Source of the DNA: Chlorobium sp.
GTDB taxonomy: Bacteria > Bacteroidota > Chlorobiia > Chlorobiales > Chlorobiaceae
NCBI GenBank assembly: GCA_005862225.1
Contig: SZXV01000008.1
Location: 1 to 64,000, forward strand
Direction: 5' to 3'
DNA: 64,000 bases
Notes under the pieces: model-generated
Seen by the model: the letters and a program-made list of their open reading frames with translations, nothing else
Told to the model about the DNA's origin: nothing
Databases searched by the model: none
Shown: piece after piece, positions 3,256 to 64,000 of the stretch
How the letters are laid out: every line of letters begins with the position of its first letter
Position numbering within the stretch: the stretch's first letter is position 1
Position numbers and translations under genes: made by a program

Positions 3256-5001
3256 TTAAAAGAACATCATCCCCTGTAACCAGACACGGCTCTTGTCGTT
3301 GCGTCCATCAGAGTTATTACCGAAGACGCTTCTACCTGGGTTGTCTCCTATCACTTGTGCCCAACTACCTTGAATCACAAATTTCCTGGAAATATCATAA
3401 CGAATTTCTATACCAGCACCCTGAAGCCAATAGTCATTACGATTTGTAGCGGTATAAACATCTCCACTGTAACGTTCTTTATTAAGAGTAATATGACCAG
3501 CATCAAAAAATACACCTGCTTTTAATTCGCCCCATTTTGCCGGTGTTGGAATTTTGTAAAGAAGATCAGCTTTTATAAGGCTTCCCTCATCACCAGAACC
3601 TTCACCCAAAGGATAGGCGCGAACACTGTTTGGCCCGCCAAGAAAGAATTTCTCGCTACTGTCAAGATTTTTGAAAGCTGTCTGTGATGTCAGACTGAGA
3701 TCCATTGACAGACGGTCATAAAAGCGCTGCAGACGAGAAACTCTGAGATTAATCCTGGTATAACCTCCCTCAGCATTATTTAAACGTCTATCTTTAATTG
3801 CTTCATGAAGATTACCAAAGGTAACGCCAGTACTCAATGTGGTGTAGCCACCACGAAGAAATACATCCTGATAATCACCCTTTATTCCCAAGGTCATGCT
3901 GTTTATCGACCTGTCGCGAAGATTTATATCAAAAGATTTGTCGGTAAGGTTTTTATAGCCATACTCTGCTTCTGTCGTAAGATTTATCTTGCGACTGCGG
4001 ATAACCTTATAGCTAAGGCCAGCTCCAAAGTTATAACTGTTGCCTTCATATCCAAGGTTAGAAAATTCTTCAAGAAGCTTATAATGCATTCCTGAGAATT
4101 TCAGCGTACCGGTAAGGCCTGGATTGGGGCAAAATGGGGAAGTGTACTCTATGCCTCCCTGCAATAACCCTTCTGAACGATTCAACGTCAGAGAAACTTG
4201 CTCACCACGACGAAATGGATCGTTGACCAAAAGGTTTGCCCCGCCAACAATACTTCCGGTATAACGATTACCATGATTGTCAACCCATGCAACCCCTGAA
4301 AGTAATGGGCCTTCTTTAACAAAATACTTCAACTCGGAACTTCCTGAAATAGTGCCAGGTGCAAGAGTGGCTTGTGCTGAAATACCTGGAAGGTCGTTCA
4401 TCAAAAGAACTGAACGCTCAAGACGCCTTTCATTAAGTGGATAACCGTTACGATAGGATTTAACGGCAATGCGACGAAGTACCTTGTTACAAATTCGTAC
4501 AGAATTATCTCGCATTATAGAAAGATTGCCGTCACTTTTACCCTGGTTAATGTGAACTTCAATGATTCCTGATGTTGCGTCCTGGGTTGGAAGATAGACA
4601 CTGGCCAATAACCAGCCTTGTGATTTCAGATAGGCTGTGATGTTTCCGGCAATCTCATCCAAATCTCCAAATGTGAGATTTTTCCCAATTGAACCCGAAA
4701 CAAGAGGCTGCAGTTCACTGTCAGTAGCCATTCCTTCAAATCCAACAAACTTGAACCCCTTGACAAATACCTTTACCACAAGATCGGCAGGCAAAGATTG
4801 TTGACTTGACTCATCAGGCTTTAACAACTCCTGCACCTGAGCCTCTTGAGTTTCAGGCTTCATAAGTTCCTGTACCTGAGCAGCCTGTTGCTGCTGTTGC
4901 TGCTGAAGAATACTACCAGCATCTGGAACCGGATCTGCTTTAAGACTACCACCCCAAAGCAAAGCAGCAGCAACAATCAATGTTATTATCTTTGGAAACA
5001 T
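3256..5001 (-). CDS. TpsB two-partner secretion transporter (ShlB/FhaC/HecB family)
   Basis: Outer-membrane beta-barrel that recognises and exports the TpsA protein encoded just downstream. The 581 residues begin with a signal peptide (MFPKIITLIVAAALLWGGSLKA). A Gln-rich linker follows, with seven consecutive Q and two copies of an AQVQEL(M/L)KP unit. The POTRA region lies at about residues 72-155 (VKGFKFVGFEG, AYLKSQGWLLASVYLP), and the ShlB-type barrel occupies the rest. The chain ends in Phe, as expected for BAM-dependent barrels. Length is typical of the family. The start has a GGGAG ribosome site ten bases upstream. TpsB precedes TpsA in the same direction, so both are probably on one transcript. 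Confidence 0.93.
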   Translation of the reverse strand: MFPKIITLIVAAALLWGGSLKADPVPDAGSILQQQQQQQAAQVQELMKPETQEAQVQELLKPDESSQQSLPADLVVKVFVKGFKFVGFEGMATDSELQPLVSGSIGKNLTFGDLDEIAGNITAYLKSQGWLLASVYLPTQDATSGIIEVHINQGKSDGNLSIMRDNSVRICNKVLRRIAVKSYRNGYPLNERRLERSVLLMNDLPGISAQATLAPGTISGSSELKYFVKEGPLLSGVAWVDNHGNRYTGSIVGGANLLVNDPFRRGEQVSLTLNRSEGLLQGGIEYTSPFCPNPGLTGTLKFSGMHYKLLEEFSNLGYEGNSYNFGAGLSYKVIRSRKINLTTEAEYGYKNLTDKSFDINLRDRSINSMTLGIKGDYQDVFLRGGYTTLSTGVTFGNLHEAIKDRRLNNAEGGYTRINLRVSRLQRFYDRLSMDLSLTSQTAFKNLDSSEKFFLGGPNSVRAYPLGEGSGDEGSLIKADLLYKIPTPAKWGELKAGVFFDAGHITLNKERYSGDVYTATNRNDYWLQGAGIEIRYDISRKFVIQGSWAQVIGDNPGRSVFGNNSDGRNDKSRVWLQGMMFF

Positions 5002-5430
5002 GCCGTTTTTTCTCCCTTTCGAGTTAATTCGTCAAAATCCAATAAGGATATAACTACAAAAAAACACAAACCGTTCAATTTTAGGAACAGACTTATTAGC
5101 CCTTCTTATATGGAAGATAGTTATAATATTATATAAGTGATGAACAAGAAGGTAATCATGCTCCAAACTTAAATATTTTTCCCCACATAAATCAGATTTA
5201 ATATACTTCATTTACTGTCATCAAAAGAAATGCCTGGCTTTAATTTGTCTCTTTTTTTTGATTTTTTTCAACCGTGACAAGCTACATTTAATTAGAATAC
5301 GTTTTTTCTCACCTCCACAAGTGCAACATTCACAAGAGAAGGACATTACAGGCTTGATGTTTCCATCATAATTATTTATAATACTTTAAGTGTTTGGATA
5401 TTTTTAACTTTTAACTATAGAACGTTATCT
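5002..5430. other. AT-rich intergenic region between divergent tpsB and phosphatase
   Basis: No gene is seen in these 429 bases. They separate the divergent starts of tpsB and the phosphatase and must hold both promoters. A TATAAT hexamer lies at 5122-5127 inside an AT-rich stretch, but I could not pair it with a convincing -35 box. No clear riboswitch or RNA gene is visible. Confidence 0.4.
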
Positions 5431-6132
5431 GTGCAACCTGATTTATCGGAAAGCCGGAGAATTATAGCCATAGGAGATGTTCACGGCTGTATACTCCCTC
5501 TGAAAAAACTTATTCGACTGCTTAAACCTGAAGCTGGGGATCAGTTGGTTTTTTTAGGTGACCTGATTGATCGGGGAGATCATTCAAAAGAGGTAATTGA
5601 TTATTTGATAGAACTCAGTTCCAGATTTTCATGCCATTTTATTATGGGTAATCATGAACTGATGTACCTTGAATATCTTGAAAACCAAAATACCGAGCAA
5701 TGGCTTTACTGTGGTGGCAGAGCCACTTTGAAATCCTATAATATCTTAAATGGTAATGACTTGCCTGACAGTCACCGTGTTTTTATACGTAGCTTCCAAT
5801 ACTATATTCAGACAGAAAACTATTTCTTTACCCATGGTGGACTTGATCCCGAACTTTCAATAATTGACAATCTTCGATATTACAAACCCGAAGAGTTCTG
5901 TTGGCAAAAGGTACACATGCGCCAGGTTTTTCTGGAAAGCAATAACTACAACTGGAACAAAACTGTTGTGTGTGCCCATACACCTGTTCCAGAACCAGTT
6001 ATGCTCGACCATCTTATCGCCATCGACACTGGTTGCGTTTACAATGAAAACCCGCTTATGGGAAAGCTGACCGCCGTGGTACTCCCTGAAAGACGTATCA
6101 TTAACATCAAAAACCCCGTCATAAGCCTATAG
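5431..6132 (+). CDS. PPP-family metallophosphoesterase (serine/threonine phosphatase-like)
   Basis: Binuclear metallophosphatase of the bacterial PrpA/PphA type, probably cytosolic. All core motifs are present in order: GDVHG (about residue 15), GDLIDRGD (about 43), GNHE (about 74), then HGG and a late CAHTPV histidine motif. The 233 residues match the ~220-residue size of bacterial protein phosphatases. The frame opens at GTG 5431, without a clear ribosome site. Alternative starts would cut into the first metal motif, so GTG is the most plausible. It is convergent with cobS and overlaps its end by six bases. The substrate (phosphoprotein or Ap4A-like) is unknown. Confidence 0.85.
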   Translation: MQPDLSESRRIIAIGDVHGCILPLKKLIRLLKPEAGDQLVFLGDLIDRGDHSKEVIDYLIELSSRFSCHFIMGNHELMYLEYLENQNTEQWLYCGGRATLKSYNILNGNDLPDSHRVFIRSFQYYIQTENYFFTHGGLDPELSIIDNLRYYKPEEFCWQKVHMRQVFLESNNYNWNKTVVCAHTPVPEPVMLDHLIAIDTGCVYNENPLMGKLTAVVLPERRIINIKNPVISL

Positions 6133-6879
6133 TCGGCAATATATTGCACCCACAATCCAGACAAACAATTCTGTCACTTCGCTTCCTGCTCCAAGCACAT
6201 CACCTGTAACACCACCAACTTTCCGATAACTCAACATTCCACTCATGATGCCTGCGATAACAGCAGCGGAAAAAACAACAACGATCTTGTAGAGATTGAC
6301 GCCTGGATAAAAAAGTAACAACAAGAGAAAAAAAGTCAATAATGTGGCAACAACTATGTGTAAGTTTCCGGCTCCATTGACAAAAGATTGTGCAGTTCCA
6401 CCTTCATTTCGAGCATAAGGCATTACTGATGCAAGCAGAACCTGCACCCAGCGCGCAAGCAAAACACCGGCAGCTATAACTTCAAATGCGCCGAACTCGA
6501 TAAGTTTAAGCACAGCAATCCATTTAAGCAGCATCATACCAGAAAGAGCAATGACTCCAAAAGAACCAACATTCGGATCCTTCATAATCCTCAATACAGC
6601 ATCTTTCGTTTGTCCTCCCCAAAATCCATCGGCCATATCGGCTAAACCATCTGCATGCATTCCTCTGGTTAAGGCAATACCTCCAAGTACAACAAAGCCT
6701 GCTGCAAGCTCATTCCAGCCTGACAAAGAAACGAAATAACCAAGTGCTGCCTGCATCATTCCAAGGAGAATCCCGACCACAGGAAACCAGAAAAGAGCAT
6801 CACTGAAATTTTCAGTATCCTTACCCCAAATTGGAAATATCGTCAAGGTTCTTGCTGCTGTAATAAATGCGCCAAGCAT
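6127..6879 (-). CDS. cobS: Adenosylcobinamide-GDP ribazoletransferase (cobalamin synthase)
   Basis: Membrane enzyme that joins adenosylcobinamide-GDP with alpha-ribazole to finish cobalamin. The 250 residues match the CobS length. The N-terminal LTIFPIWG, the acidic RGMHADGLADMADGFWGG segment and the C-terminal GVTGDVLGAGSEVTEL signature are all visible among several hydrophobic helices. Its ATG overlaps the cobT stop (ATGA), showing translational coupling. Together with cobT it forms the lower-ligand assembly step. The B12 made is relevant in this organism because bacteriochlorophyll methylases and cyclases of the radical-SAM type use cobalamin. Confidence 0.96.
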   Translation of the reverse strand: MLGAFITAARTLTIFPIWGKDTENFSDALFWFPVVGILLGMMQAALGYFVSLSGWNELAAGFVVLGGIALTRGMHADGLADMADGFWGGQTKDAVLRIMKDPNVGSFGVIALSGMMLLKWIAVLKLIEFGAFEVIAAGVLLARWVQVLLASVMPYARNEGGTAQSFVNGAGNLHIVVATLLTFFLLLLLFYPGVNLYKIVVVFSAAVIAGIMSGMLSYRKVGGVTGDVLGAGSEVTELFVWIVGAIYCRL

Positions 6880-7946
6880 CAGTTGTCCTTCGCTTTTTCA
6901 CTCACCCGTGCCTCGCTGAAAGTGGACATTTCATTGAAGATTTTCAATGAGCCCTCAATAACCTGCATGGCAAGTGCCGCTCCCGTTCCCTCACCAAGAC
7001 GAAGATCAAGATCAAGAATGGGTCGGGCTCCAAGCTTTTCCATGACCACCCTGTGCCCCTGCTCACTGGAACAGTGGCTGAAAAAAATATAATCTTCAAC
7101 GGCAGGACAAAGTCTGAGAGCTACAACTGCTCCAGATGAAGAAATAAACCCGTCAACAACCACAGGAGTCCTGTTGGCAGCAGCTCCAAGGATAAAACCT
7201 GTTATCGCAGCAATTTCATAGCCGCCAAGAGCAGCCAGTGTACCAAAAACTGTAGTACACCGCGAAGAGTTTACGCCAACAGATTTGTTTATTATATCTA
7301 TCTTATGTTTCAAGCGATTATCATCAATCCCGGTACCCCGGCCAGTAATGCACTCAACAGACAGATCAAGCAAAACAGAATAAATGGCTGTTGCCGGGGT
7401 GGTATTGGCAATCCCCATCTCCCCAGTTCCGAGAAGATGATAACCTGCCTTATGCGCTGCATCTGCAAGTTCTTCGCCATGAAGCAGGGCCTTAAGTGCA
7501 TCCTCCTCGCTCATTGCAGGACCTTTCGCCATATTGGCACTTCCGGGCTGTACCTTTCTTTTTACCAGACCTGGTAAATCAGGAAAATCATGGTTCACCC
7601 CAACATCCACAACATCAAGATCAGCGCCCGCATGACGCGCAAGAACGTTTATGGCAGCTCCACCACCGAGCATGTTGTAAACCATCTGAGGTGTAACCTC
7701 TGCCGGAAAAGCCGAGACCCCTTCAGCAGCAACCCCATGGTCAGCCGCAAAACAACAGATTTTCATTTTTTTCAGCACTGGATTCAACTTGCCAGTCGCC
7801 AGAACATATTTCAGTGCAATCTCTTCAAGACGTCCAAGACTCCCCTGTGGCTTGGTCAGATCATCAAGGTGATCTTGAGCTGCATCAATCATGGAACGAT
7901 CTGCAGGTAGAACGCGATTCAAAAGATGTTGTAGCCTATCATTCAT
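6879..7946 (-). CDS. cobT: Nicotinate-nucleotide--dimethylbenzimidazole phosphoribosyltransferase
   Basis: Activates the lower-ligand base for cobalamin by moving phosphoribose from nicotinate mononucleotide to form alpha-ribazole phosphate. The 355 residues match the Salmonella CobT length. Family landmarks are [13 protein letters not shown] near the N-terminus, [27 protein letters not shown] and the C-terminal [12 protein letters not shown], whose Glu is the known catalytic base. The start is ATG 7946. It lies between bciA (gap of 61 bp) and cobS (4-bp overlap), all on the minus strand, suggesting one transcript. Confidence 0.97.
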
Positions 7947-8007
7947 AATATGCCATAAAATAAATAAAATTAATCACCAAACACTATTGTTTGCATTTTT
8001 TCCAACA

Positions 8008-9000
8008 TTAAAACACAGAGTGTTCACCGAGTTCCTGCCCAGCCAACCCCTCTTTCAGAACACGCTTGAAGAAATCACGCAAAGTATCGCTGCCAAAAGA
8101 AGGAGTACGGTCGGCATCATATTTTCCGGTTTCCGGATTAAGCACCAGCATAGATTCAGAGCAGTAATATTTACCAATACGGGCAAATTCAGCCTTGTCC
8201 TCAAGTTTCGGAAAGACTTTTGCAAGAAGAGCCAATACAGGAATAATCACATCAAACAAAAAAATCGGAACTTTTTTGAACTTTGGCGTGCGACCAAGAA
8301 GCTCAAAAAGTATTTCCCCCTGTTCAATGGGCGTAATCGCCTTGCCGGGCCCCCCTATGGGCAGAATTTTATTTTGCAGCTTTGGATCTTCAAGGCAATT
8401 AACGATATAACGCGCAAGATCAGATTCACTGATAGGCTTGCATGCCGTCAGTCTGCCATCGCCAAACATAACATAAGGCTTTCCTTTTTTAACAGACTCA
8501 ACCTGACCTGCAATAGACTTGAAAAACGCGGTAGGGCGCACAATTGACCAGATCAGACCGGATTCTTTCAGCTCTTTTTCAAATTGCAGCTTTGCTCTCT
8601 GAAACTCCAGCAAAGGCTTCTGAACACAAATCGCGGAAAGCAGTACAAATTGGGTCGCACCTGCGGACTTTCCAGCATCGAGCGCATTACGCGTAGCCCG
8701 ATAGTCGATATTCCATGAATCCTTCACACCTCCATTCCGGGAGGTAAGACAGGAAACCACAACATCAAAACGCTCTCCCTTGATACCATTTTGCACAATG
8801 GAATCGATACTCCTCACATCACCAAACCTTACCTCTGACCCCGTCAACTGAGAACGAACTTCATCAGTTGTGGCCGACGAGCCAACACCAGAGCGTTCAC
8901 GTGCAAAACTCACGACATCATATCCTCTGGCAACCAGTTCACGGACAACAAATTTCCCGATATATCCGGTAGCTCCAACAACAAAAACTCGTTTCTTCAC
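8008..9000 (-). CDS. bciA: Divinyl (proto)chlorophyllide 8-vinyl reductase, BciA type
   Basis: NADPH-dependent reductase of the atypical short-chain/NmrA fold that reduces the C8 vinyl group of divinyl (proto)chlorophyllide in bacteriochlorophyll synthesis. The Rossmann motif is GATGYIGKF at residues 9-17. Family features are [18 protein letters not shown], the [15 protein letters not shown] segment and VRPTAFFKS. At 330 residues the length fits BciA. It is divergent from the amino acid permease across a 552-bp gap and lies upstream of cobT-cobS. The link between pigment and cobalamin genes makes metabolic sense. The BciA assignment over a generic epimerase rests on overall similarity as I recognise it; no search was run. 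Confidence 0.87.
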
Positions 9001-9552
9001 AGAAGTAATAGTTACACAATTTCAATACAAAAGAGCTTCATCTCCATCCACGGGAAATTGACAACAGGAATAATTATATCTCTGGCATAAATAAGAAACA
9101 GCGGAAAATAAAGCATAATGTTACGGTTATCAAATTTCTCACCAAATCGGTCGCGCCTTGATTCGCTCAAGGCAGTTCCTTTCATGACAAGCTATTTGTG
9201 TTTTTTTTCTAAATTCTTTTTTGTTGAGTTGAGTTGAGAACAAATAATCCCCTGAACATTATACTGGAACTTGTCTTATTATTGAATTGTTTGATAGTTC
9301 AGATCATGTAAAGACACTCTTTGAGTCACCGATTAACGACAATTACTTCAGTAATGTATTTTGATTGCATATATTTAGTGTTTGTCCTGCCACCGATGCT
9401 TCTTGGTCTGTGGGCACAATTCAATTTAAAATAAGCTTTTAAAAAGTATTCACAGCTTCGGACACAGACTTGAATGACTGGCGCTGAGGCTGCTCAGGCG
9501 ATTATGCAGTTGGTCTATTTTCTTTCCATCATGAATCGAAGGGATTCTTAGC
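9001..9552. other. 552-bp intergenic region between divergent bciA and permease
   Basis: No coding frame is supported here. The stretch is AT-rich and holds the promoters of both flanking genes. The only patterned element is three tandem TTGAG units at 9224-9238. I looked for a cobalamin riboswitch and for other structured RNA and saw none. Confidence 0.4.
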
Positions 9553-11040
9553 ATGAAAAACAGCTTTCGAAAAAAACCGCTCTCGCTTCTCTTAAAAGAG
9601 ATCAATAGTGAACATCGCCTGAACAGGGTTCTTGGTCCTGTCGCGCTGACCAGTCTTGGTGTTGGTGCTATTATTGGAACGGGAATTTTTGTCCTTATCG
9701 GAGTGGCTGCGCATGACAAGGCTGGACCGGCGGTAACACTTTCTTTTGCTGTTGCTGGTATGGCCTGTATTTTTGCTGCGCTTTGTTATTCTGAGTTTGC
9801 TTCCATGGTACCGGTTGCCGGTTCAGCCTATACTTATGCTTATGCCACGCTGGGTGAGTTGATGGCATGGATTATTGGCTGGGATCTGATTCTTGAGTAT
9901 GGTGTAGCTTCGGCGACGGTTGCACATGGTTGGTCAAAATATTTTCAGGATTTAATAGGCATTTTCGGGCTCGGGGTTCCAGCTCTTTTTGCAAATGCTC
10001 CATTTGACTTCGATCCTGCAAGCGGGATTTTAAGACCTACCGGTTCATGGTTTGATCTTCCAGCAATTCTTATCACGTTTGCGGTTACCGTGGTGCTTGT
10101 CAAGGGCATTAAAGAGAGTGCGAACTTTAATGCTGGTATGGTCATTGTCAAGGTTGCTATTGTGCTGCTGGTCATTGTGCTTGGCGCAATGTATGTCAAA
10201 CCTGAGAATTGGATACCTTTTGCTCCTTTTGGATTTTCTGGATTCAGTATTTTTGGACACACGGTTCTCGGACAACCTGGTGCTGGTGGTACGCCCGTTG
10301 GAGTACTTGCCGGTGCTGCAATGATTTTCTTTGCCTATATCGGGTTTGATTCTATTTCTACTCATGCTGAAGAGGCAAAAAATCCCCAGCGGGATATCCC
10401 GATTGCCCTTATCAGTTCTCTGGTGGTATGCACTATTCTCTACATTGCCGTCGCAGCAGTGATCACTGGCATGGTTCCCTACGACAAGATCAATATTGAT
10501 GCGCCAGTCTCCAATGCGTTCATGCAGGTTGGGATCGGCTGGGCACAGTTGGTAATTTCACTTGGAGCGATTACGGGTATCACGTCAGTCTTGCTGGTCA
10601 TGATGCTGAGCCAACCGAGGGTTTTTCTGGCCATGGCGCGTGATGGTCTGTTGCCGAAATCTTTTTTTGGAGCAATTCATGAAAAGTTCAGAACTCCCTG
10701 GAAATCGACCATTCTGACGGGTATTTTTGTTGCTGTTCTTGGAGGAATGCTTCCTTTGCGTCTGCTGGCAGAACTTGTTAATATCGGAACGCTATTTGCT
10801 TTTGTTGTGGTCTGCGGCGCTGTGCTGATCATGAGAAAAACACACCCTGACGCCAATCGTCCTTTTAGAGCGCCACTGGTGCCTTTTGTGCCGATTGCCG
10901 GCATCCTTACCTGTCTCATGCTGATGTTTTCGCTACCTGTTGAAAACTGGATTCGGCTTTTTGGATGGCTTTTTATAGGCCTGGTGATCTATTTCTTCTA
11001 TGGGCGCAAGCATAGCGCGCTCAATACCTTAGAACCATAA
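9553..11040 (+). CDS. APC-family amino acid permease (cationic amino acid transporter type)
   Basis: Inner-membrane transporter with about 12 to 14 hydrophobic helices. The first helix carries the unwound-helix signature GVGAIIGTGIFVLIG at about residues 36-50, and the sixth has FFAYIGFDSISTHAEEAKNPQRDIP, typical of the YfnA/CAT branch. The 495-residue length is normal. An intracellular loop has the family's MLSQPRVFLAMARDGLLP segment. It starts a plus-strand run and is followed after 11 bp by a short-chain dehydrogenase, probably on the same transcript. The transported amino acid cannot be decided from sequence. Confidence 0.92.
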   Translation: MKNSFRKKPLSLLLKEINSEHRLNRVLGPVALTSLGVGAIIGTGIFVLIGVAAHDKAGPAVTLSFAVAGMACIFAALCYSEFASMVPVAGSAYTYAYATLGELMAWIIGWDLILEYGVASATVAHGWSKYFQDLIGIFGLGVPALFANAPFDFDPASGILRPTGSWFDLPAILITFAVTVVLVKGIKESANFNAGMVIVKVAIVLLVIVLGAMYVKPENWIPFAPFGFSGFSIFGHTVLGQPGAGGTPVGVLAGAAMIFFAYIGFDSISTHAEEAKNPQRDIPIALISSLVVCTILYIAVAAVITGMVPYDKINIDAPVSNAFMQVGIGWAQLVISLGAITGITSVLLVMMLSQPRVFLAMARDGLLPKSFFGAIHEKFRTPWKSTILTGIFVAVLGGMLPLRLLAELVNIGTLFAFVVVCGAVLIMRKTHPDANRPFRAPLVPFVPIAGILTCLMLMFSLPVENWIRLFGWLFIGLVIYFFYGRKHSALNTLEP

Positions 11041-11051
11041 TCAACAACTAC

Positions 11052-11750
11052 ATGAATAAGAAGGTATTTCTTATTACTGGAGCGTCAACAGGGATTGGGG
11101 AAGCAACAGCAAGGCGAGCGATAGAGGCCGGGTACAAGGTTGCCCTGGCTGCACGATCAACTCAAAAGCTTGAGCAGTTAGTCGCTTCATTTGGTTGTGA
11201 TAAAGCACTTGCCATAACCTGCAATGTTGCTGAGTGGCAATCGCAGAAGGAGATGGTGGAGAAAACCCTGAACCATTTCGGCAAAATTGATGTCGTCTTT
11301 GCCAATGCAGGATTTTCGAAAGGCTCATCGTTTTACGGTGGAGAAGATAAACCTGACGAATGGCGAGAGATGGTTATGGTCAATGTGTTTGGGGCGGCAG
11401 TAACAGCTCGACTGACATTGCCTGAACTGGTAAAAAATGGAGGGCATTTTCTGGTGACAGGTTCTGTTGTTGGACGTGTTACCTCTATCCGAAATCTTTA
11501 CTCAGCAACGAAATGGGCCGTAACCGGAATGGCACAGGCGATCCGGAATGAAATGGTGGGAACGGGAATCCGTGTTACACTGATTGAGCCTGGTATTGTT
11601 GACACTCCATTCTGGGATCAACTTCAAAAACCGGCGTCAACAGAACTGCTTCCGGATGATATTGCGCGTGCTGTCATGTTTGCTGTCAGTCAACCACCTC
11701 ACGTTGATGTCAATGATATCCTGATACGACCGACTGGGCAACCGCACTGA
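11052..11750 (+). CDS. Short-chain dehydrogenase/reductase (classical SDR)
   Basis: Cytosolic NAD(P)-dependent oxidoreductase of 232 residues. The cofactor motif TGASTGIG (residues 8-15), the NAG motif, the catalytic Ser in TGSVVGRV and the YSATK active site (YxxxK) are all in place, followed by IEPGIVDTPF. The Arg in the second beta strand region (AARSTQKL) favours NADP. The substrate is unknown. It starts 11 bp after the permease gene and is likely cotranscribed with it. Confidence 0.9.
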   Translation: MNKKVFLITGASTGIGEATARRAIEAGYKVALAARSTQKLEQLVASFGCDKALAITCNVAEWQSQKEMVEKTLNHFGKIDVVFANAGFSKGSSFYGGEDKPDEWREMVMVNVFGAAVTARLTLPELVKNGGHFLVTGSVVGRVTSIRNLYSATKWAVTGMAQAIRNEMVGTGIRVTLIEPGIVDTPFWDQLQKPASTELLPDDIARAVMFAVSQPPHVDVNDILIRPTGQPH

Positions 11751-11801
11751 TAGGTCGCTCTTTGTAATCTTTTCCGGAACCTCTTCCAATATATTGAATT
11801 A

Positions 11802-12443
11802 ATGCTGATTACTTTTGAAGGAATTGACGGCGCAGGAAAATCTACCCAGATCATACAGCTTGTCAACTTCATGACCAATCAGGGTATAGATGTTATAACC
11901 CTGAGGGAACCTGGTGGCACAGATTCAGCAGAAAAAATTCGCACGATCCTTCTCGACAACTCTCATAAGATCAGTCCGGTTGGTGAACTGCTCCTTTTTT
12001 CAGCAAGCAGGGCTGAGCTGGTTCAGGATATTATCATTCCCGCACTTGGAGCAGGAAAAACAGTTATTCTTGATAGATTTTTTGATTCTACAACCGCCTA
12101 TCAAGGTTATGGGAGAGGCATTGACCTTGAGTTACTCAAGTCAATTATCTCTCTGTCAACCTGCGGCATAATTCCGGATATTACCTTTTATCTTGATATT
12201 GACCCGGCTGAGGCGATGAAAAGAAAATTTGCAAAGAGCTCTATTCCACTTGCATTTGAGGATGAGGAGCTCGACCGTATGGAACGTTCCGGCATTGAAT
12301 TTTACCGAAAGGTACAGCAAGGATACAGGGAAATAATAAAACAAAACAGCAATCGCCTTGTCGTTCTCAACGCCATGGAACCAGTTGGTGATATCCACCA
12401 CCATATCATAACTGTTCTGAAAGATCGATTACCAATAATATGA
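11802..12443 (+). CDS. tmk: Thymidylate kinase
   Basis: Phosphorylates dTMP to dTDP in the cytosol. The P-loop [11 protein letters not shown] (residues 4-14) is followed by [14 protein letters not shown], then [18 protein letters not shown] with the DR(F/Y/H) motif, and a lid region (AMKRKFAKS). The 213-residue length is standard. It lies 51 bp after the SDR gene. Confidence 0.97.
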
Positions 12444-56902: not shown

Positions 56903-57136
56903 ATGGCCGTACATCTTGAAGCCGCACTTGAGGAAGGTGAACCAGCGCTTGTTGTTCAAGCATTAGGAACAATAGCTAAAGCAAGGGGCATGTCTCAAAT
57001 AGCTCGTGAAACAGGTCTTGGTCGTGAAAGTTTGTACAAGACACTTTCTCTGGGAGGGAACCCTGAATTTGCTACTGTTATTAAAGTAATTCGAGCATTA
57101 GGTATCCGTTTACACGCCGAAACCGTCAATAAGTAA
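56903..57136 (+). CDS. Addiction-module antitoxin (HigA-like HTH), N-terminus uncertain
   Basis: 77 residues from ATG 56903: AVHLEAALEEGEPALVVQALGTIAKARGMSQIARETGLGRESLYKTLSLGGNPEFATVIKVIRALG. This is the helix-turn-helix antitoxin family (putative addiction module antidote) that pairs with RelE-like phage-derived toxins. Family members have about 20 more N-terminal residues, and the same frame upstream reads TKTRSYDAAEYLTTGEE, fitting them, but has no start codon before a stop at 56828. ATG 56823 in another frame would join if one T were added to the T6 run at 56842-56847. No intact toxin is next to it. Confidence 0.82.
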   Translation: MAVHLEAALEEGEPALVVQALGTIAKARGMSQIARETGLGRESLYKTLSLGGNPEFATVIKVIRALGIRLHAETVNK

Positions 57137-57279
57137 TGCGGCAGGATGTGGTTTTGAACAATATCCTGCCTTATGATGATTGAAGACCGTCACCATGACC
57201 AGAAATAACACATGAGTATTCCGGCGTTTCCTCTTGTGAGACTGCCCGAAAGAATAAACATTACACACCATTCAATCCA

Positions 57280-60200
57280 ATGACCTTCCAGACACTCCTG
57301 ACCAAATACCGCCAACACTCCTTCTCCGAACGCGACAAGGGCGACCGCTTTGAGCGGCTCATGCAGGCATATCTCAAAACCGACCCAAAATATGCTTACC
57401 GCTTCAGGCATGTCTGGCTCTGGAATGAATTTTCAGGCCGCAAGGATTTGGGGGGAACCGATACCGGCATTGACCTCGTGGCCCTGACCCGGGAAGGCGA
57501 CTACTGGGCAATTCAGTGCAAATGTTTTGATGCTGCCGCCACCATCGACAAACAGGCGGTCGACTCCTTTCTCTCCACCTCAAGCCGGGAGTTCAAAAAC
57601 GACAACCAGCAAACCGCCGCCTTTTCCCAGCGGCTCTGGATATCAACCACCAACAAGTGGGGCCCGAACGCCAATGAGGCTATCAAGAACCAGAACCCTC
57701 CGGTTACAAGAATCAATCTCTACGACCTGGAGCACTCCCCTGTTGACTGGGCAAGCCTTGAGCAGGGAATCACCGGTGAACAGGCTCGAACGGCAAAAAA
57801 GGAGATTCGCCCCCATCAGCAGACCGCTATCGACAATGCGCATGAGCATTTCACCACTGCCGACCGGGGCAAACTCATCATGGCGTGCGGCACCGGCAAA
57901 ACATTCACCTCCCTGCGGATTGCCGAAAACGAGACGGAGGGCAAGGGGCTGATTCTCTTTCTTGTTCCCTCAATTGCCCTGCTTGGCCAGACGCTCAGGG
58001 AGTGGACGGCTGATGCACGAGAGCCGATCAACCCCCTCTGCATCTGCTCAGATCCAAAAATCACCCGCAAGCACGCCCGCAATGACGACAACGACTCCAC
58101 CAGTGTGCTCGACCTTGCCCTGCCTGCAACGACCGACGTAGCAACCATTGTCCGCCAGTTCCGGCAACTGCACGAAGCTGAAAAAGCCGGGATGACCGTT
58201 GTTTTCTCGACCTATCAATCCATAGAGGTTATTGCGCAGGCACAACAAGAGCTGCTCACTGCAGCGGAGCCGACATACGGCATCTTCGACCTTATTATTT
58301 GTGACGAAGCACACAGAACCACCGGCGTCACCCTCACCGATGAGGACTCCTCCGCCTTCATCAAAGTGCACGACAACAGCTTCATCAAGGCGAAAAAACG
58401 GCTCTACATGACCGCCACGCCGCGCCTCTACAGCGACGATTCCAAAGCAAAGGCCGCGCAGTCGGACGCCCTCCTCTGCTCCATGGATGACCCCTCGCTG
58501 TATGGTGATGAGATCTACCGGATAGGTTTTGGCGAAGCGGTAGAACGGGATCTGCTGGCCGACTACAAAGTGCTCATCCTCACCCTTAGCGACGCCGATA
58601 TTACGCCAGCCGTGCAGAACGCGATCTCCAATCAGGAGCATGAAATCAATGCTGATGACGCGTCGAAGCTTATCGGCTGCATCAACGCCCTCTCCAAGCA
58701 GATTCTCGGTGACGCCGGTGTGCTGAAGAGCAGTGACCCGGAACCGATGCGGAGAGCAGTGGCCTTCTGCCAGACCATCAAGGTTTCCCAAAAAATCACC
58801 AGCAACTTCAACTCCACCACGGAGCTCTATCTGAACTCACTCCCCGAAGAGAAGCGGGAGCAGATGGTCTCCCTCTCGTCGAAACATATCGATGGCACCA
58901 TGTCAGCCCCTGAGCGCGATGAACTCCTCGGCTGGCTGCAGGCGCCTTCCGAAGCCAACGAATGCCGGGTACTCACCAATGTCCGCTGCCTCAGCGAAGG
59001 GGTTGATGTGCCAACGCTCGATGCAGTCCTCTTCCTCTCGGCCCGCAACTCCTCGGTTGATGTTGTGCAGTCTGTTGGCAGAGTGATGCGCAAAGCTCCC
59101 GGCAAAAAGTACGGCTATATCATTATTCCCATTGTTGTTCCATCGGATATCGACCCGGCAAGGGCACTTGACGACAATGAGCGCTACAAGGTGGTCTGGT
59201 CAGTACTCAACGCCCTGCGTGCCCATGACGACCGCTTCAACGCCACCGTCAACAAGATTGAGCTGAACAGACATCGGCCGGAGCAGATTCTGGTTGGCCG
59301 ACCCGATCACGGCAACTATGGCGATGGCGGAGCTGAAGGGCTGGTAAGCAGCGGAGATGGAGCAAACGATCCTGCAACGGCTTACGGAAATGCTACAGAG
59401 AACAGTCGGCAACAGTTGGCCATGCAGTTCCAGCAACTCCAGAGCGTCTTCTTTGCCCGTCTGGTGCAAAAGGTTGGCGACCGCCGCTACTGGGAGCAGT
59501 GGGCGAAGAATGTTGCGGAGATTGCACAGCGGCAGGCCGAAAGAATCAACCGCCTCATCAAGGCTGACGGGGAGCACAAAAGAGCTTTTCAGGAGTTTCT
59601 CGGCGGCCTGCGGCAGAACATCAACCCCTCCATCACCGAACAGGAGGCCGTTGAAATGCTCTCGCAGCACGTTATCACCAAACCGGTTTTTGAGGCGCTC
59701 TTCAAAGGCTACTCCTTCGTGCAGAATAACCCCATCTCTGTCTCAATGCAGAAGATGCTCGACCTGCTCGAAGCGCAGACCATCCAGGAAGATTTCGATA
59801 CCCTGCAAAAATTTTATGAATCCGTCAGAATGCGGGCTGCCGACATCGACAACGCCGCAGGCAAACAGCGCATCATCATTGAGCTCTACGACAAGTTCTT
59901 CAAAACCGCCTTCCCCAAGATGGTCGAAAAGCTCGGCATCGTTTACACGCCGGTTGAGGTGGTTGACTTCATCATCCACTCCGTCAACGACCTGCTCAAA
60001 AAGGAGTTTGGCCGCACCCTCGCCGATGAAAACGTCCATATTCTCGACCCCTTTACTGGCACAGGCACCTTCATCACCCGCCTGCTGCAAAGTGGCCTGA
60101 TTGGGCCTGATGAGCTTGAGCACAAGTACCAGAAGGAGATACACGCCAACGAAATTGTGCTGCTCGCCTACTACATCGCAGCAGTCAACATCGAGAACGC

Positions 60201-62106
60201 CTTTCACGACATGATGGGCGATGCCACACACTACAAAGCCTTCGACGGAATTTGCCTCACCGACACCTTTCAGCTCGGCGAAACCGATGCCAGCACCGTC
60301 CTCTTTTCAGAGATGTTCCCGCAGAACTCCGAGCGGGTATCAGCGCAGAAGAAGACCCCCTTGCGGGTCATTATCGGCAACCCGCCCTACTCCGTCGGCC
60401 AGAAATCCGCCAACGACAATGCGCAGAATCAGAGCTATACAACGCTTGATGGGCGGATTGCGGCCACCTACGCCGCCGCATCAAATGCAACATTACAGAA
60501 CTCGCTCTACGACTCCTACATCAAGGCATTCCGCTGGTCAACCGACCGGCTTGACCCCAAGAATGGCGGCATTATCGCCTTTGTCTCAAACGGTGCTTGG
60601 CTTGATGGCAACAGCACTGACGGACTCCGTCAATGCCTGCAAAAAGAGTTCTCCAGCATCTGGGTTTTCAACCTGAGAGGCAACCAGCGCACCAGTGGAG
60701 AACTTTCCCGAAAAGAGGGCGGCAAGATCTTTGGTTCCGGCTCCCGTACACCCATAGCCATTACCCTGCTGGTGAAGAATCCCGGCAAGCCCGCAGGCAA
60801 AGCCACCATCCACTATGTCGATATCGGCGACTACCTCAACCGCGATGAGAAGCTTGCCACCATCAGCAAATACCGTTCAATTGGCAATCCCGAAATGCCC
60901 TGGCAGACCCTGCAGCCCAATGAACATGGGGATTGGCTAAACCAGCGTAATGATCTCTTTGAGACTTTTATTCCGATTGGAGACAAGGATGACAAAAAAG
61001 CGAAAACCTTCTTTGTCCCGTTATATTCCAATGGAGTAAAAACACAGCGGGATGCCTGGTGCTATAATTCATCGAGATATCAACTTGAACGCAATATTCG
61101 TTCAACAATAGACTTTTACAACGAGCAACAAGAGACATTTCAGCAAGCAAAACGATCACAGCCGCATCTTACGGCAAAAGATTTTCTCTCCTATGACTCA
61201 ACAAAAATAAGCTGGACACGGGCACTGGAACGAAATGCTGAGAAAGGGAATCGACACAATTATACAACCGGTGAAATTGTGACGGCTTACTATCGGCCAT
61301 ATTTCAAGCGAAATCTTTATTACTCCCGTTTTCTAAATGAAGAAATTGGATTGATTCCCAAGCTTTTTCCAACAGCCAATAGTAAAAATCTGGTGATTTG
61401 TGTTTCAGGAATCGGAGCGAGCAAGGATTTCTCTTTACTTATCACAGATTGTATCCCTGATTTACAGCTTCAATTTAACGGACAATGCTTCCCTCTCCAC
61501 TACTACGAAGAGCGCCAGAAATCCAGCCCGACACTCTTTGACGCAGCCACAGAAAACGAGCAGATCCGCCGCGACGGCCTCTCAGGCTTCATCCTCGAAC
61601 GCGCACAAAGCATGTACGGCAGCCGCGTCACCAAAGAGGATCTCTTCTACTACGTTTACGGCCTCCTCCACAGCCCCGAATACCGCACCCGCTTTGCCAA
61701 CGACCTGAAAAAGATGCTTCCTCGCATTCCTCTTGTCGAAGAGCCCCGTGACTTCTGGGGCTTCAGTAAAGCAGGCCGCCAGCTCGCCCACCCCACCTCA
61801 ACTACGAAATCGTCCCACCCTCCCAGGAGGTCACCGTCACCGGCGCCGAAACAGGCCACTTCACCGTCGAAAAAATGCGCTTCCCCAAAAAAGGAGAGAA
61901 AGACACCATCATCTACAACAGCTCCATCACCATCCAGAACATCCCCGCCAAAGCCTACGACTACACCGTCAACGGCAAAAGCGCCATCGAATGGATCATG
62001 GAACGCTACCAATTCACCACCCACAAAGAAAGCAATATCACCAACAACCCCAACGACTGGTCAAAAGAGGTTGGAAATCCCCGCTATATTCTTGATTTGC
62101 TACTGA
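57280..62106 (+). CDS. Type ISP-like single-chain restriction-modification enzyme, frameshifted near its end
   Basis: One polypeptide with nuclease, translocase and methyltransferase, like LlaGI/LlaBIII. An Mrr-type nuclease lies at the N-terminus, with D65 and Q79-C-K81 in GIDLVALTREGDYWAIQCK. Helicase motifs are CGTGKT (K207), DEAH (342-345) and MTATPR. The N6-adenine methyltransferase has motif I DPFTGTGTF from D923 and motif IV NPPY (1034-1037). The target-recognition region follows. After about residue 1503 the frame turns into a Pro/Ser/Thr-rich stretch that is not protein-like; the true tail continues in another frame to 62174. GC content is higher than in the earlier part of the window. 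Unless the enzyme tolerates this tail or the frame is restored, it may be inactive or switched off. Confidence 0.93.
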   Translation: MTFQTLLTKYRQHSFSERDKGDRFERLMQAYLKTDPKYAYRFRHVWLWNEFSGRKDLGGTDTGIDLVALTREGDYWAIQCKCFDAAATIDKQAVDSFLSTSSREFKNDNQQTAAFSQRLWISTTNKWGPNANEAIKNQNPPVTRINLYDLEHSPVDWASLEQGITGEQARTAKKEIRPHQQTAIDNAHEHFTTADRGKLIMACGTGKTFTSLRIAENETEGKGLILFLVPSIALLGQTLREWTADAREPINPLCICSDPKITRKHARNDDNDSTSVLDLALPATTDVATIVRQFRQLHEAEKAGMTVVFSTYQSIEVIAQAQQELLTAAEPTYGIFDLIICDEAHRTTGVTLTDEDSSAFIKVHDNSFIKAKKRLYMTATPRLYSDDSKAKAAQSDALLCSMDDPSLYGDEIYRIGFGEAVERDLLADYKVLILTLSDADITPAVQNAISNQEHEINADDASKLIGCINALSKQILGDAGVLKSSDPEPMRRAVAFCQTIKVSQKITSNFNSTTELYLNSLPEEKREQMVSLSSKHIDGTMSAPERDELLGWLQAPSEANECRVLTNVRCLSEGVDVPTLDAVLFLSARNSSVDVVQSVGRVMRKAPGKKYGYIIIPIVVPSDIDPARALDDNERYKVVWSVLNALRAHDDRFNATVNKIELNRHRPEQILVGRPDHGNYGDGGAEGLVSSGDGANDPATAYGNATENSRQQLAMQFQQLQSVFFARLVQKVGDRRYWEQWAKNVAEIAQRQAERINRLIKADGEHKRAFQEFLGGLRQNINPSITEQEAVEMLSQHVITKPVFEALFKGYSFVQNNPISVSMQKMLDLLEAQTIQEDFDTLQKFYESVRMRAADIDNAAGKQRIIIELYDKFFKTAFPKMVEKLGIVYTPVEVVDFIIHSVNDLLKKEFGRTLADENVHILDPFTGTGTFITRLLQSGLIGPDELEHKYQKEIHANEIVLLAYYIAAVNIENAFHDMMGDATHYKAFDGICLTDTFQLGETDASTVLFSEMFPQNSERVSAQKKTPLRVIIGNPPYSVGQKSANDNAQNQSYTTLDGRIAATYAAASNATLQNSLYDSYIKAFRWSTDRLDPKNGGIIAFVSNGAWLDGNSTDGLRQCLQKEFSSIWVFNLRGNQRTSGELSRKEGGKIFGSGSRTPIAITLLVKNPGKPAGKATIHYVDIGDYLNRDEKLATISKYRSIGNPEMPWQTLQPNEHGDWLNQRNDLFETFIPIGDKDDKKAKTFFVPLYSNGVKTQRDAWCYNSSRYQLERNIRSTIDFYNEQQETFQQAKRSQPHLTAKDFLSYDSTKISWTRALERNAEKGNRHNYTTGEIVTAYYRPYFKRNLYYSRFLNEEIGLIPKLFPTANSKNLVICVSGIGASKDFSLLITDCIPDLQLQFNGQCFPLHYYEERQKSSPTLFDAATENEQIRRDGLSGFILERAQSMYGSRVTKEDLFYYVYGLLHSPEYRTRFANDLKKMLPRIPLVEEPRDFWGFSKAGRQLAHPTSTTKSSHPPRRSPSPAPKQATSPSKKCASPKKERKTPSSTTAPSPSRTSPPKPTTTPSTAKAPSNGSWNATNSPPTKKAISPTTPTTGQKRLEIPAIFLICY

Positions 62107-62174
62107 GCGTCATCAATGTGAGCGTGAAGACGGTGGAGATTGTTGAGGGGTTGCCGGAGTTGAGGTTTGAATAG
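61791..62174 (+). other. Out-of-frame C-terminal segment of the Type ISP enzyme
   Basis: From about 61797 the frame that reads LNYEIVPPSQEVTVTGAETG, VEKMRFPKKGEKDTI, NIPAKAYDYTVNGKSAIEW, MERYQ and GNPRYILDLLLSVINVSVKTV is the family's usual C-terminus. Adding one base near the C4 run at 61791-61794 joins it to the upstream frame. The complete enzyme would be about 1631 residues. Confidence 0.85.
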
Positions 62175-62217
62175 GATAATATTGTGCTATCGAATAATAA
62201 CATAAATAGTTATAGGA

Positions 62218-63279
62218 ATGGCAAATCAAGAGCATCTCCATATATTGAAACAAGGCGTTGAAGTCTGGAATAAGTGGCGAGAAAACAATCCTTTGATTAT
62301 TCCTGATCTTACATATGCATATCTAAGAAAAGCTAATCTTGTAAAAGTCAACTTCGAAAGAGCTAATCTTTTAGAAATGAATCTTTCAGAATCGGATCTT
62401 AGTAATGCAAATCTTTATGAAGCTAATCTTTCAATTGCTAATCTAAATAGAATAAATCTTTCAGATGCTGACTGCTATGGAGTGAATTTTTATAAAACAA
62501 ACCTTTCAGATGCAGACTTTAGTGGATCAAATCTCGAAAGAGCCAATTTTTTAGATACTAAACTTTTTAACGCTACTCTATATAAATCGAACCTTTCAGA
62601 TGCTCACTTCGAAAGAGCTAAGCTTAAAAAAACCGATTTTTTTCAAGCAATACTTTCTGGTACCACATTTGAAGATATTGATCTAAGTACAGTTGTAGGA
62701 TTAGATTCAATTATTCATTATGGCCCATCCACAATAGGAGTAGATACGATTTATAAGTCCAACGGAAATATCCCAGAAGTATTTCTTCGTGGCTGCGGTC
62801 TGCCAGATGAATTTATTGAATATATCCCCTCCCTAACCGGCAAAGGCATCGAATACTATTCCTGCTTCATCAGTTACAGCCACAGGGATGAAGAATTTGC
62901 AAAGCGAGTGCATAACGACTTGCAGGCAAAAGGTGTCCGCTGCTGGTTTGCCCCGCATGACATGAAAATCGGCGACAAAATACGAGCAACCATCGACGAC
63001 TCAATCCGCCTTCATGACAAGCTGCTCCTGATTCTATCGGAACACTCAGTACAAAGCGACTGGGTTGAACATGAAGTCGAGCATGCCCTCGACCTCGAAA
63101 GAGAACGTAAAAAAACCAGTCTCTTTCCAGTACGAATTGATGACGCAATCATGGACAGCACAACCGGATGGTCCGGAAACGTGAAACGCCAGCGGCACAT
63201 AGGCGACTTCACCCAGTGGAAACAGCACGACACCTACCAGGGAGCATTCGACCGCCTCTTGCGGGATTTGAAAGCCTGA
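62218..63279 (+). CDS. Pentapeptide-repeat protein with C-terminal TIR domain
   Basis: 353 residues, probably cytosolic. Residues ~28-160 form a right-handed quadrilateral helix of pentapeptides (ANLLEMNLSESDLSNANLYE; units of the A(D/N)LxxX form). A conserved linker follows (PSTIGVDTIYKSNGNIPEVFLRGCG). From residue 214 comes a TIR domain, YYSCFISYSHRDEEFAKRVH, with CWFAPHDMKIGDKI and the WVEHE motif, whose E286 is at the position of the NADase catalytic Glu. TIR domains in bacteria often deplete NAD in antiphage systems; the pentapeptide part could bind a partner or mimic DNA. It lies 43 bp after the RM gene, in the same direction. GGA sits just before the ATG. Confidence 0.9.
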   Translation: MANQEHLHILKQGVEVWNKWRENNPLIIPDLTYAYLRKANLVKVNFERANLLEMNLSESDLSNANLYEANLSIANLNRINLSDADCYGVNFYKTNLSDADFSGSNLERANFLDTKLFNATLYKSNLSDAHFERAKLKKTDFFQAILSGTTFEDIDLSTVVGLDSIIHYGPSTIGVDTIYKSNGNIPEVFLRGCGLPDEFIEYIPSLTGKGIEYYSCFISYSHRDEEFAKRVHNDLQAKGVRCWFAPHDMKIGDKIRATIDDSIRLHDKLLLILSEHSVQSDWVEHEVEHALDLERERKKTSLFPVRIDDAIMDSTTGWSGNVKRQRHIGDFTQWKQHDTYQGAFDRLLRDLKA

Positions 63280-63293
63280 CGCTCTGATATTTG

Positions 63294-63398
63294 TGCCGAG
63301 GGAACGCTCATAACGACGTAAACTTTGGAGAGTGGTTCACTGAGTCCCAGCTTTATTCAGTATCCTTGTTTTATGCCGAGCTGGAGCTCGGCGTTCCC
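63294..63398. repeat. Hairpin and inverted-repeat element after the TIR gene
   Basis: GCCGAGCTGGAGCTCGGC (63375-63392) is a near-perfect palindrome. GGGAACGC (63300-63307) and GCGTTCCC (63391-63398) are inverted, and TGCCGAG occurs at 63294 and 63374. This looks like a small interspersed repeat or MITE-like element. No coding is supported in 63280-63537. Confidence 0.45.
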
Positions 63399-63537
63399 AG
63401 GGGGGATGCGGGATTTTATGGCTTGAATGCTTATAATTGAAACATTGGATATTGATGCCTTGAAAAAAGCCCTTGTAGCCAAAAACTGACATCATCAGCT
63501 TCCCGAATCACAGCAACTCAATATTTCAATATCAGAT

Positions 63538-64000
63538 ATGACGATTGAGCGTTCTGGTTCCTTTTCTTGTCACCGATTTTTGGATGAAGCCGGAGACACC
63601 ACGTTTTACGGAAAAGGGAAAATCCCTGTTATTGGAAATGCCGGTGCTTCGTATTGCTTTATGCTCGGCATGCTCAAAATTAATGAGCCGCTTGATGCTG
63701 TACGAAAAAAAGTTGTTGAACTCCAACAATCAATCGCTGCCGATGCATATTTTGCCGGAATTCCGAGCATCGAAAAGAAAAAATCATCATACGGCTATTT
63801 TCTTCATGCAAAAGATGACCTGCCTGAAGTCAGAAAACTGGCGTTCGACCTCATTAAAGGAATTGACTGTAGTTTTGAAGCTGTCATCGGCAGAAAAATT
63901 CCGCACTTGTATGAAAGCAAACATAATGGCAAAGAGGCTGAATTCTATGCTGATCTGCTTTCACATTTACTCAAACACAATCTGAATGAACACGATAAGC
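63538..64000 (+). CDS. DUF3800-family protein (partial, C-terminus outside window)
   Basis: An open frame from ATG 63538 to the right edge reads MTIERSGSFSCHRFLDEAGDTTFYGKG, then VIGNAGASYCFMLGMLKI and IEAVIGRK-like segments (CSFEAVIGRKIPHLYE). The N-terminal FLDEAGD acidic motif is the mark of DUF3800, an RNase H-like fold of unproven function, common next to restriction-modification and phage-defence genes. 154 codons are visible. A frame at 63545 on the same strand is only its shadow. Confidence 0.8.
   Translation, partial: MTIERSGSFSCHRFLDEAGDTTFYGKGKIPVIGNAGASYCFMLGMLKINEPLDAVRKKVVELQQSIAADAYFAGIPSIEKKKSSYGYFLHAKDDLPEVRKLAFDLIKGIDCSFEAVIGRKIPHLYESKHNGKEAEFYADLLSHLLKHNLNEHDK

Follow-up and report, generated by a model that had tools for sequence, protein, structure and literature searches.

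Introduction

TIR domains that act as NADase effectors are well known in bacteria, and they work as assemblies, including the filaments of AbTIR and the tetramers of SPARTA. How bacterial TIR proteins acquire new specificities is largely an open question. Pentapeptide repeats are so far known mainly from DNA mimics that protect gyrase and from proteins of unknown role.

The gene described here, which we call PPR-TIR, is in a 64,000-nucleotide stretch of Chlorobium DNA (the window) and encodes a pentapeptide coil joined to a TIR domain. PPR-TIR has the TIR fold and the WxxxE motif in common with AbTir, and NADase activity is predicted; AbTir, however, has no pentapeptide coil. SPARTA is like PPR-TIR in having a NADase effector and a recognition part on one chain. 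In contrast to SPARTA, the PPR-TIR chain has no APAZ, there was no Argonaute among the immediate neighbors scanned, and the recognition part would be the pentapeptide coil. The TIR domain scored weakly against the models for Thoeris ThsB, CBASS SAVED-TIR, retron-TIR and TIR-NLR. The chain has no SLOG/SIR2 part (as in ThsA), SAVED, reverse transcriptase or STAND part, and no such partner was found among the immediate neighbors scanned. The coil has the right-handed quadrilateral beta-helix of MfpA, Qnr and HetL (Z 20-22), but unlike them it is fused to a TIR domain, its surface is not conserved, and it falls below the NCBIfam cut-offs. TIR effectors with a recognition arm are known as a kind; our best reading is that the new element in PPR-TIR is a pentapeptide coil that is exchanged as a block.

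In the sections covered of two papers on conflict systems, these systems combine a constant core with rapidly varying modules, and pentapeptide repeats and TIR are separate modules (PMC7159879, PMC8195603). As in PPR-TIR, one module stays constant and the part joined to it changes from one close relative to the next. The arrangement is reversed, however: in the conflict systems of those sections effectors vary around a regulatory core, whereas in PPR-TIR it is the repeat arm that varies, on a constant effector. A pentapeptide-TIR fusion is not described in the same sections of these papers (PMC7159879, PMC8195603).

Architecture of PPR-TIR

The open reading frame at 62218-63279 of this Chlorobiaceae DNA is intact and encodes 353 amino acids, arranged as cap, coil, linker and TIR domain:

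62218..63279, + strand: PPR-TIR gene (cap, pentapeptide coil, linker, TIR; 353 aa), from the ORF, Pfam and AlphaFold2
62218..62310, + strand: N-terminal helical cap, residues 1-31, from the alignment, AlphaFold2 helices 4-23 and DNA identity
62311..62667, + strand: exchanged block, the pentapeptide beta-helix, residues 32-150, from blastn against coils at the same locus and GC3
62692..62853, + strand: conserved linker, residues 159-212, from alignments and AlphaFold2 helices 175-207
62854..63276, + strand: TIR domain, residues 213-353, from TIR_2 (E 3.5e-26) and VIA-align
63061..63075, + strand: WxxxE motif, W282 to the catalytic-position E286, from the alignment to AbTIR and family conservation

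The Pfam families found in the chain were all pentapeptide or TIR families, with Pentapeptide (PF00805) in several stretches (E 1.4e-36, 124 bits against a curated cut-off of 20.2) and TIR_2 (PF13676) at residues 217-348 (92.5 bits against a curated cut-off of 28). An AlphaFold2 model made with 47 relatives as input had a mean pLDDT of 89.6 (near 97 in the coil and about 80 in the TIR domain). It placed two cap helices at residues 4-23, a beta-helix at about 29-157, a helical linker at 175-207 and a TIR fold at 215-352. The cap has the family motif MANxEHLxILKxGVxxWNxWR, in which M1 and W17 were invariant and G13, N18 and W20 nearly invariant among 47 sequences. The linker motif is GPSxIGIDTLYKSxGxIPxxFLRGCGxPDxxIxY.

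Foldseek TM-scores for the whole two-domain model were low because the coil dominates, and we used VIA-align instead. The coil matched natural and designed pentapeptide solenoids, HetL, MfpA and QnrB1 (Z 20-25). The TIR part matched SPARTA TIR-APAZ (Z 18, 1.9 A over 132 residues), AbTir (PDB 7uxu/8g83; Z 16.4, 2.2 A) and also eukaryotic TIRs. The closest solved bacterial TIRs to the predicted fold include those of SPARTA and AbTir.

The initial annotation had described a TIR domain with the NADase-position Glu joined to a pentapeptide helix, and Pfam, phmmer and the AlphaFold2 model all agree with this. The phmmer alignment set W282-V-E-H-E286 against the W-x-x-x-E motif of AbTIR, which is named as an NAD+ hydrolase. 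E286 was present in all 89 aligned TIR domains and W282 in 87 of them. That is, the putative catalytic site is conserved in the family, and judging from these alignments the TIR domain is most likely an NAD+-cleaving enzyme.

We also tried several described systems as identities for the gene. Thoeris was rejected: a ThsA-type partner (SLOG with SIR2 or TM) is absent, the neighbors being a Type ISP restriction-modification (RM) gene, a DUF3800-like gene and an HTH gene, and the NCBIfam model ThcB4 gave 21.4 of 220 bits. For CBASS SAVED-TIR, the PADLOC match covered the TIR part only, with no SAVED on the chain, and no CD-NTase gene was found among the immediate neighbors scanned in the window. 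Retron_TIR_antiphage gave 32.5 of 600 bits, again over the TIR part only. The NCBIfam models for Qnr and MfpA gave 43.5 of 240 and 26.8 of 360, respectively.

Replacement of the coil at one locus

We found PPR-TIR at one syntenic site in four Chlorobiaceae genomes (that of the window and L042, L078 and L051), in each case behind the end of the same Type ISP RM gene. In all six pairs of the four alleles, the flanks, cap and TIR were 84-89% identical. This identity ended between about +60 and +100 of the gene and resumed over its last 530-610 bp. In the coil DNA between these flanks, similarity was undetectable by blastn in all six pairs. The cap, which is conserved both family-wide and in synteny, was 84-87% identical in DNA between the window and L042, L051 and L078. 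The window matched L042 over 57261-62311 (RM gene and cap; 88% identical) and L078 over 57280-62319 (86% identical), about 5 kb in each case; these matches ended at the end of the cap and restarted at 62667, in the last rung of the coil. L051 carries the RM 3' end twice, with the second copy immediately preceding PPR-TIR, and the pattern of coil replacement was the same.

The difference in the coil is larger than expected from the divergence of its surroundings. At fourfold sites of matched pairs, the RM gene was 80% (L042) and 66% (L078) identical and the linker and TIR were 50-70% identical; the coil was 39-45% identical at these sites and 34-41% identical in amino acids. Because the amino acid identity of the coil is below the fourfold-site identity of its flanks, the change in the coil exceeds neutral drift of the same age. 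By comparison of these sequences, then, the coil at this one locus has been replaced as a block. Misassembly is unlikely to explain this pattern, since the four genomes were assembled separately and in three of them the reading frame continues from the cap through the coil into the TIR. The coil of L078 contains a stop or frameshift.

Replacement does not appear to be continuous. L041 and L078 were 97% identical over the gene and had kept the same coil; therefore, replacement is episodic rather than a product of continuous hypermutation. Tandem copies in L050 had TIR DNA that was identical over about 400 bp and different coils, a pattern that fits gene conversion of the constant part.

We looked for a source of the window's coil. 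Its DNA had no match in the other genomes of the 65 in the genus, except for a 42-bp stretch in G362. No donor was found, and hence the route of exchange is one that we infer. The coils of other members shared repeat-like DNA at 65-88%, with no clear donor pair. The base composition of the coil was distinct in the window (GC3 about 0.15, compared with 0.60 in the TIR part) and in Chlorobiaceae members (third-position GC of 0.18-0.39 in the strongly AT-rich coil vs 0.44-0.60). We did not take this as proof of a foreign coil; family-wide the difference is small and varies in sign, and it is supporting evidence only.

Distribution of the family

A profile of the linker and TIR matched at least 249 genome stretches from many phyla (GTDB genomes), and the best 80 of these 249 relatives were fetched as a family sample. 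Pentapeptide repeats preceded the linker in nearly all of the best 80, and most had the WNxWR motif in the cap. The hosts were Chlorobiota, Acidobacteriota, Chloroflexota, desulfobacteria, Cyanobacteriota, Bacteroidota, Planctomycetota and others. Phyla were intermixed on the TIR tree, yet the Chlorobiaceae members clustered together. In a sample of the window's phylum, 34 of 394 genomes had matches, including fragments and copies with stops, and two or more family members were within 10 kb of each other in 11 of 51 genomes (counted by eye). In the collections searched, no phage record had a family member, there was only one plasmid match, and viral contigs were few.

The initial annotation knew of no characterized system with this combination, and we found none either. 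The family is absent as a system from PADLOC 2023, and searches of open-access full texts turned up neither a pentapeptide-TIR fusion nor its variability; an earlier description in subscription papers or preprints is possible.

Coil evolution across the family

The histories of the coil and the TIR domain are decoupled across the family. In comparisons of all member pairs, coil identity was 42-45% in every class of TIR identity from 30 to 98% (Spearman 0.03). Cap and linker identity tracked TIR identity (Spearman 0.26 and 0.22, respectively). In 37 close pairs, coil identity was 41.9%, vs 37.6% when the pentads of one coil were shuffled. The core positions of the coil were constrained (entropy 0.96 and 1.4 bits) and the surface was near-random (2.9-3.0 bits). 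Thus, the fold of the coil is kept while its surface changes.

It is possible that only the TIR domain does conserved work. The coil would then be a scaffold or oligomerization rod under loose constraint, with a surface that recognizes nothing in particular and that repeat slippage and recombination alter freely. Pentapeptide arrays are repetitive and recombine easily, and both the range of coil lengths (55-291 residues) and the combination of a conserved core with a near-random surface fit such a rod. Recombination between repeats, if constraint is weak, could also replace coils with no selection for recognition. However, other pentapeptide proteins of the same six genomes, used as a control, were mostly 75-92% identical (55-61% in one comparison). 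In addition, neutral drift alone is too slow to account for a coil that differs more than the fourfold sites of its own flanks, slippage within the same repeats should leave recognizable DNA and none was detected, and the change ends at the cap and linker. We consider a rod of this kind unlikely, though it deserves some weight.

The initial annotation had also suggested that the coil might shield DNA in the way that MfpA and Qnr do for gyrase. Our results do not support this. The coil could mimic DNA and bind gyrase or some other DNA-binding enzyme, with the TIR domain firing when a phage disturbs that target; its structure resembles those of MfpA and QnrB1 (Z about 20 over 180-198 aligned residues), and the window's coil, with pI 4.8 and a net charge of -5 over 130 residues, is mildly acidic. 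This likeness in fold, however, is common to every pentapeptide coil, and the Qnr and MfpA models were far under their cut-offs. If the target were a conserved host protein, the surface of the coil should be conserved as well, but the surface, length and charge all vary (pI from 4.1 to 10.5 in the family). The variable charge and length argue against one conserved host target such as gyrase, and we give this explanation very little credence.

Neighborhood of the gene

The gene order in the window is HI1420-type antidote, Type ISP RM, PPR-TIR, DUF3800-like and HTH. The neighboring features are:

56903..57136, + strand: HI1420-type addiction-module antidote gene, upstream of the RM gene (TIGR02684, 104.8 bits, cut-off 53.7)
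57280..62174, + strand: Type ISP (Type IIG-like) RM gene (ISP_coupler, Type_ISP_C, Mrr_cat_2, ResIII; PADLOC REase_MTase_IIG, 2224 bits)
63538..64000, + strand: DUF3800-like gene, downstream, 272 aa overall and running past the window (PADLOC DUF3800_VII, E 3.4e-13; Pfam DUF3800 score slightly below cut-off)

PPR-TIR starts 43 bp behind the RM gene on the same strand. The initial annotation had placed it right behind an RM gene, and this is the case here and at the locus in the three relatives. The RM gene itself is frameshifted near 61786 in the window, with its last residues (61875-62174) in another frame. It has an in-frame stop in L042 (4612-6075 / 6079-9498) and is a single open frame in L078. 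PPR-TIR remains open in the window and in L042, and the locus may be losing restriction.

No fixed partner gene was found family-wide. Recurrent neighbors were other pentapeptide proteins (7 of 145) and some TIR, NACHT or nSTAND genes. PADLOC gave few matches among the 145 neighbors, including RM subunits; the matches among 143 control genes were generic, with no RM subunits (both as tallies by family only). An N6-methylase was within 10 kb at four or more loci outside the Chlorobiaceae (G398, G400, G401 and G429, counted from the matches listed), vs 0.62 expected (P 0.004, under a uniform-placement model that ignores contig ends). The RM linkage is local and not a family-wide rule, and enrichment across the family is at most modest; the few PADLOC matches carry no firm claim of enrichment. 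We rejected RM adjacency as the key to this gene.

PPR-TIR and the neighboring Type ISP RM gene might act together as a combined locus, with the TIR domain killing the cell once restriction has failed; this seems to us quite improbable. The 43-bp gap on one strand, the same order in L042 and L078, the RM 3' end in L051 and the N6-methylase loci are all in favor of such a partnership. However, most family members have no RM neighbor, including close relatives such as L040, and PPR-TIR is open in the two genomes in which the RM frame is broken or stopped.

The TIR domain could also be a scaffold or signaling domain in a pathway outside defense. NADase activity has not been demonstrated for every bacterial TIR domain, and ordinary metabolic genes adjoin many of the family loci. 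Set against this are the invariant catalytic Glu, the patchy presence, broken copies and tandem clusters of the family, and NACHT/nSTAND or caspase-nSTAND-pentapeptide neighbors in several loci. A role outside defense is, in our view, highly improbable.

Proposed function

We consider it probable that PPR-TIR is a stand-alone TIR-NADase defense receptor in which the coil serves for recognition and is exchanged rapidly. The TIR domain, which likely cleaves NAD+, would be kept inactive in the resting protein. The pentapeptide beta-helix, with conserved helices capping both ends, would be the recognition arm and would bind a ligand derived from the invader, most likely a phage protein. Binding would cluster PPR-TIR so that the TIR domains line up as an active assembly, and depletion of NAD+ by that assembly would cause the infected cell to die or stall before phage release. 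New specificities would arise by swapping or rebuilding the whole coil block, with the conserved sequences on either side (the cap; the linker and TIR) left in place. The later steps of the response follow what is established for TIR NADases; for PPR-TIR, we infer the NADase activity, the role of clustering in activation, the nature of the ligand, protection against phage and the way in which coils are exchanged.

The earlier proposal that this gene encodes a TIR defense effector thus gains indirect support, from the invariant Glu of WxxxE, the likeness of the TIR to those of SPARTA and AbTIR, the patchy spread over many phyla, and the broken and tandem copies. On the other hand, the neighborhoods were not strongly enriched in PADLOC matches, and carriage by phages and plasmids was near absent. 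The suggestion that the coil is the sensing part is consistent with its replacement at a fixed locus; that it senses a phage protein stays conjectural. The finding is more interesting than first stated, and the reason is the coil, not the RM neighbor or DNA mimicry.

Tentatively, we extend this reading to the family: PPR-TIR proteins could be an undescribed, widespread family of immune receptors in which a constant TIR-NADase carries a block-exchanged coil that renews specificity at a fixed locus. By analogy, this would be a prokaryotic parallel to the logic of variable recognition arms on constant immune effectors. If this is true, a family spread over many phyla joins the known defense receptors, and if the coil sets what is sensed, pentapeptide repeats gain a role as evolvable recognition arms. 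The four alleles that occur naturally at the one locus have unrelated coils on an almost identical enzyme.

Other arrangements and local repeats

The cap and coil were also found on other C-termini, and therefore the cap-coil unit appears to be a portable module. L050 12251-13651 encodes a cap and coil with a different TIR domain. L118 has two cap-coil proteins (10974-11969 and 4598-5752) with a C-terminal domain that has no Pfam match and has the pattern VxLILGRFTxERKxVLDxxRxELR...FIIADLTDPSSI. This domain is possibly a Rossmann-like effector; the model of the L118 protein had low confidence (mean pLDDT 60, with the C-terminal part mostly <50). A further cap-coil protein is encoded elsewhere in the genome of the window; its hydrophobic C-terminus probably spans the membrane and shows 82-85% conservation among relatives.

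The tandem pairs in L060, L062, L090, L102, L106, L107 and L119 often consist of two distant TIR subtypes (37-48% identical); that is, they are mixed subtypes rather than recent duplicates. The second members in L060, L102, L107, L090 and L119 form one clade on the TIR tree, which suggests a recurring two-gene arrangement. The window's genome has at least four other TIR proteins (G000:C4:515109, 519339, C4:166785 and C4:72579), two of which are about 1,170 aa and 4 kb apart.

In L051, the RM 3' end is present twice (1703-2515 and 6583-7196), with lipoprotein-like and toxin-antitoxin genes between the copies; we read this as a local duplication or insertion. The sequence at 63243-63414 of the window (the TIR 3' end and just behind it), which is partly palindromic (...ccgagctggagctcggcgttcccaggggg...), has copies at L040 6450-6623 and 10291-10464 and at L051 4267-4437, and resembles an intergenic repeat of the interspersed type. 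L040 5588-5714 and L051 3395-3529 are short remnants of the TIR 3' end, with about 35 codons at 89-90% identity to the window. They sit away from the intact gene, as if they were decayed former copies.
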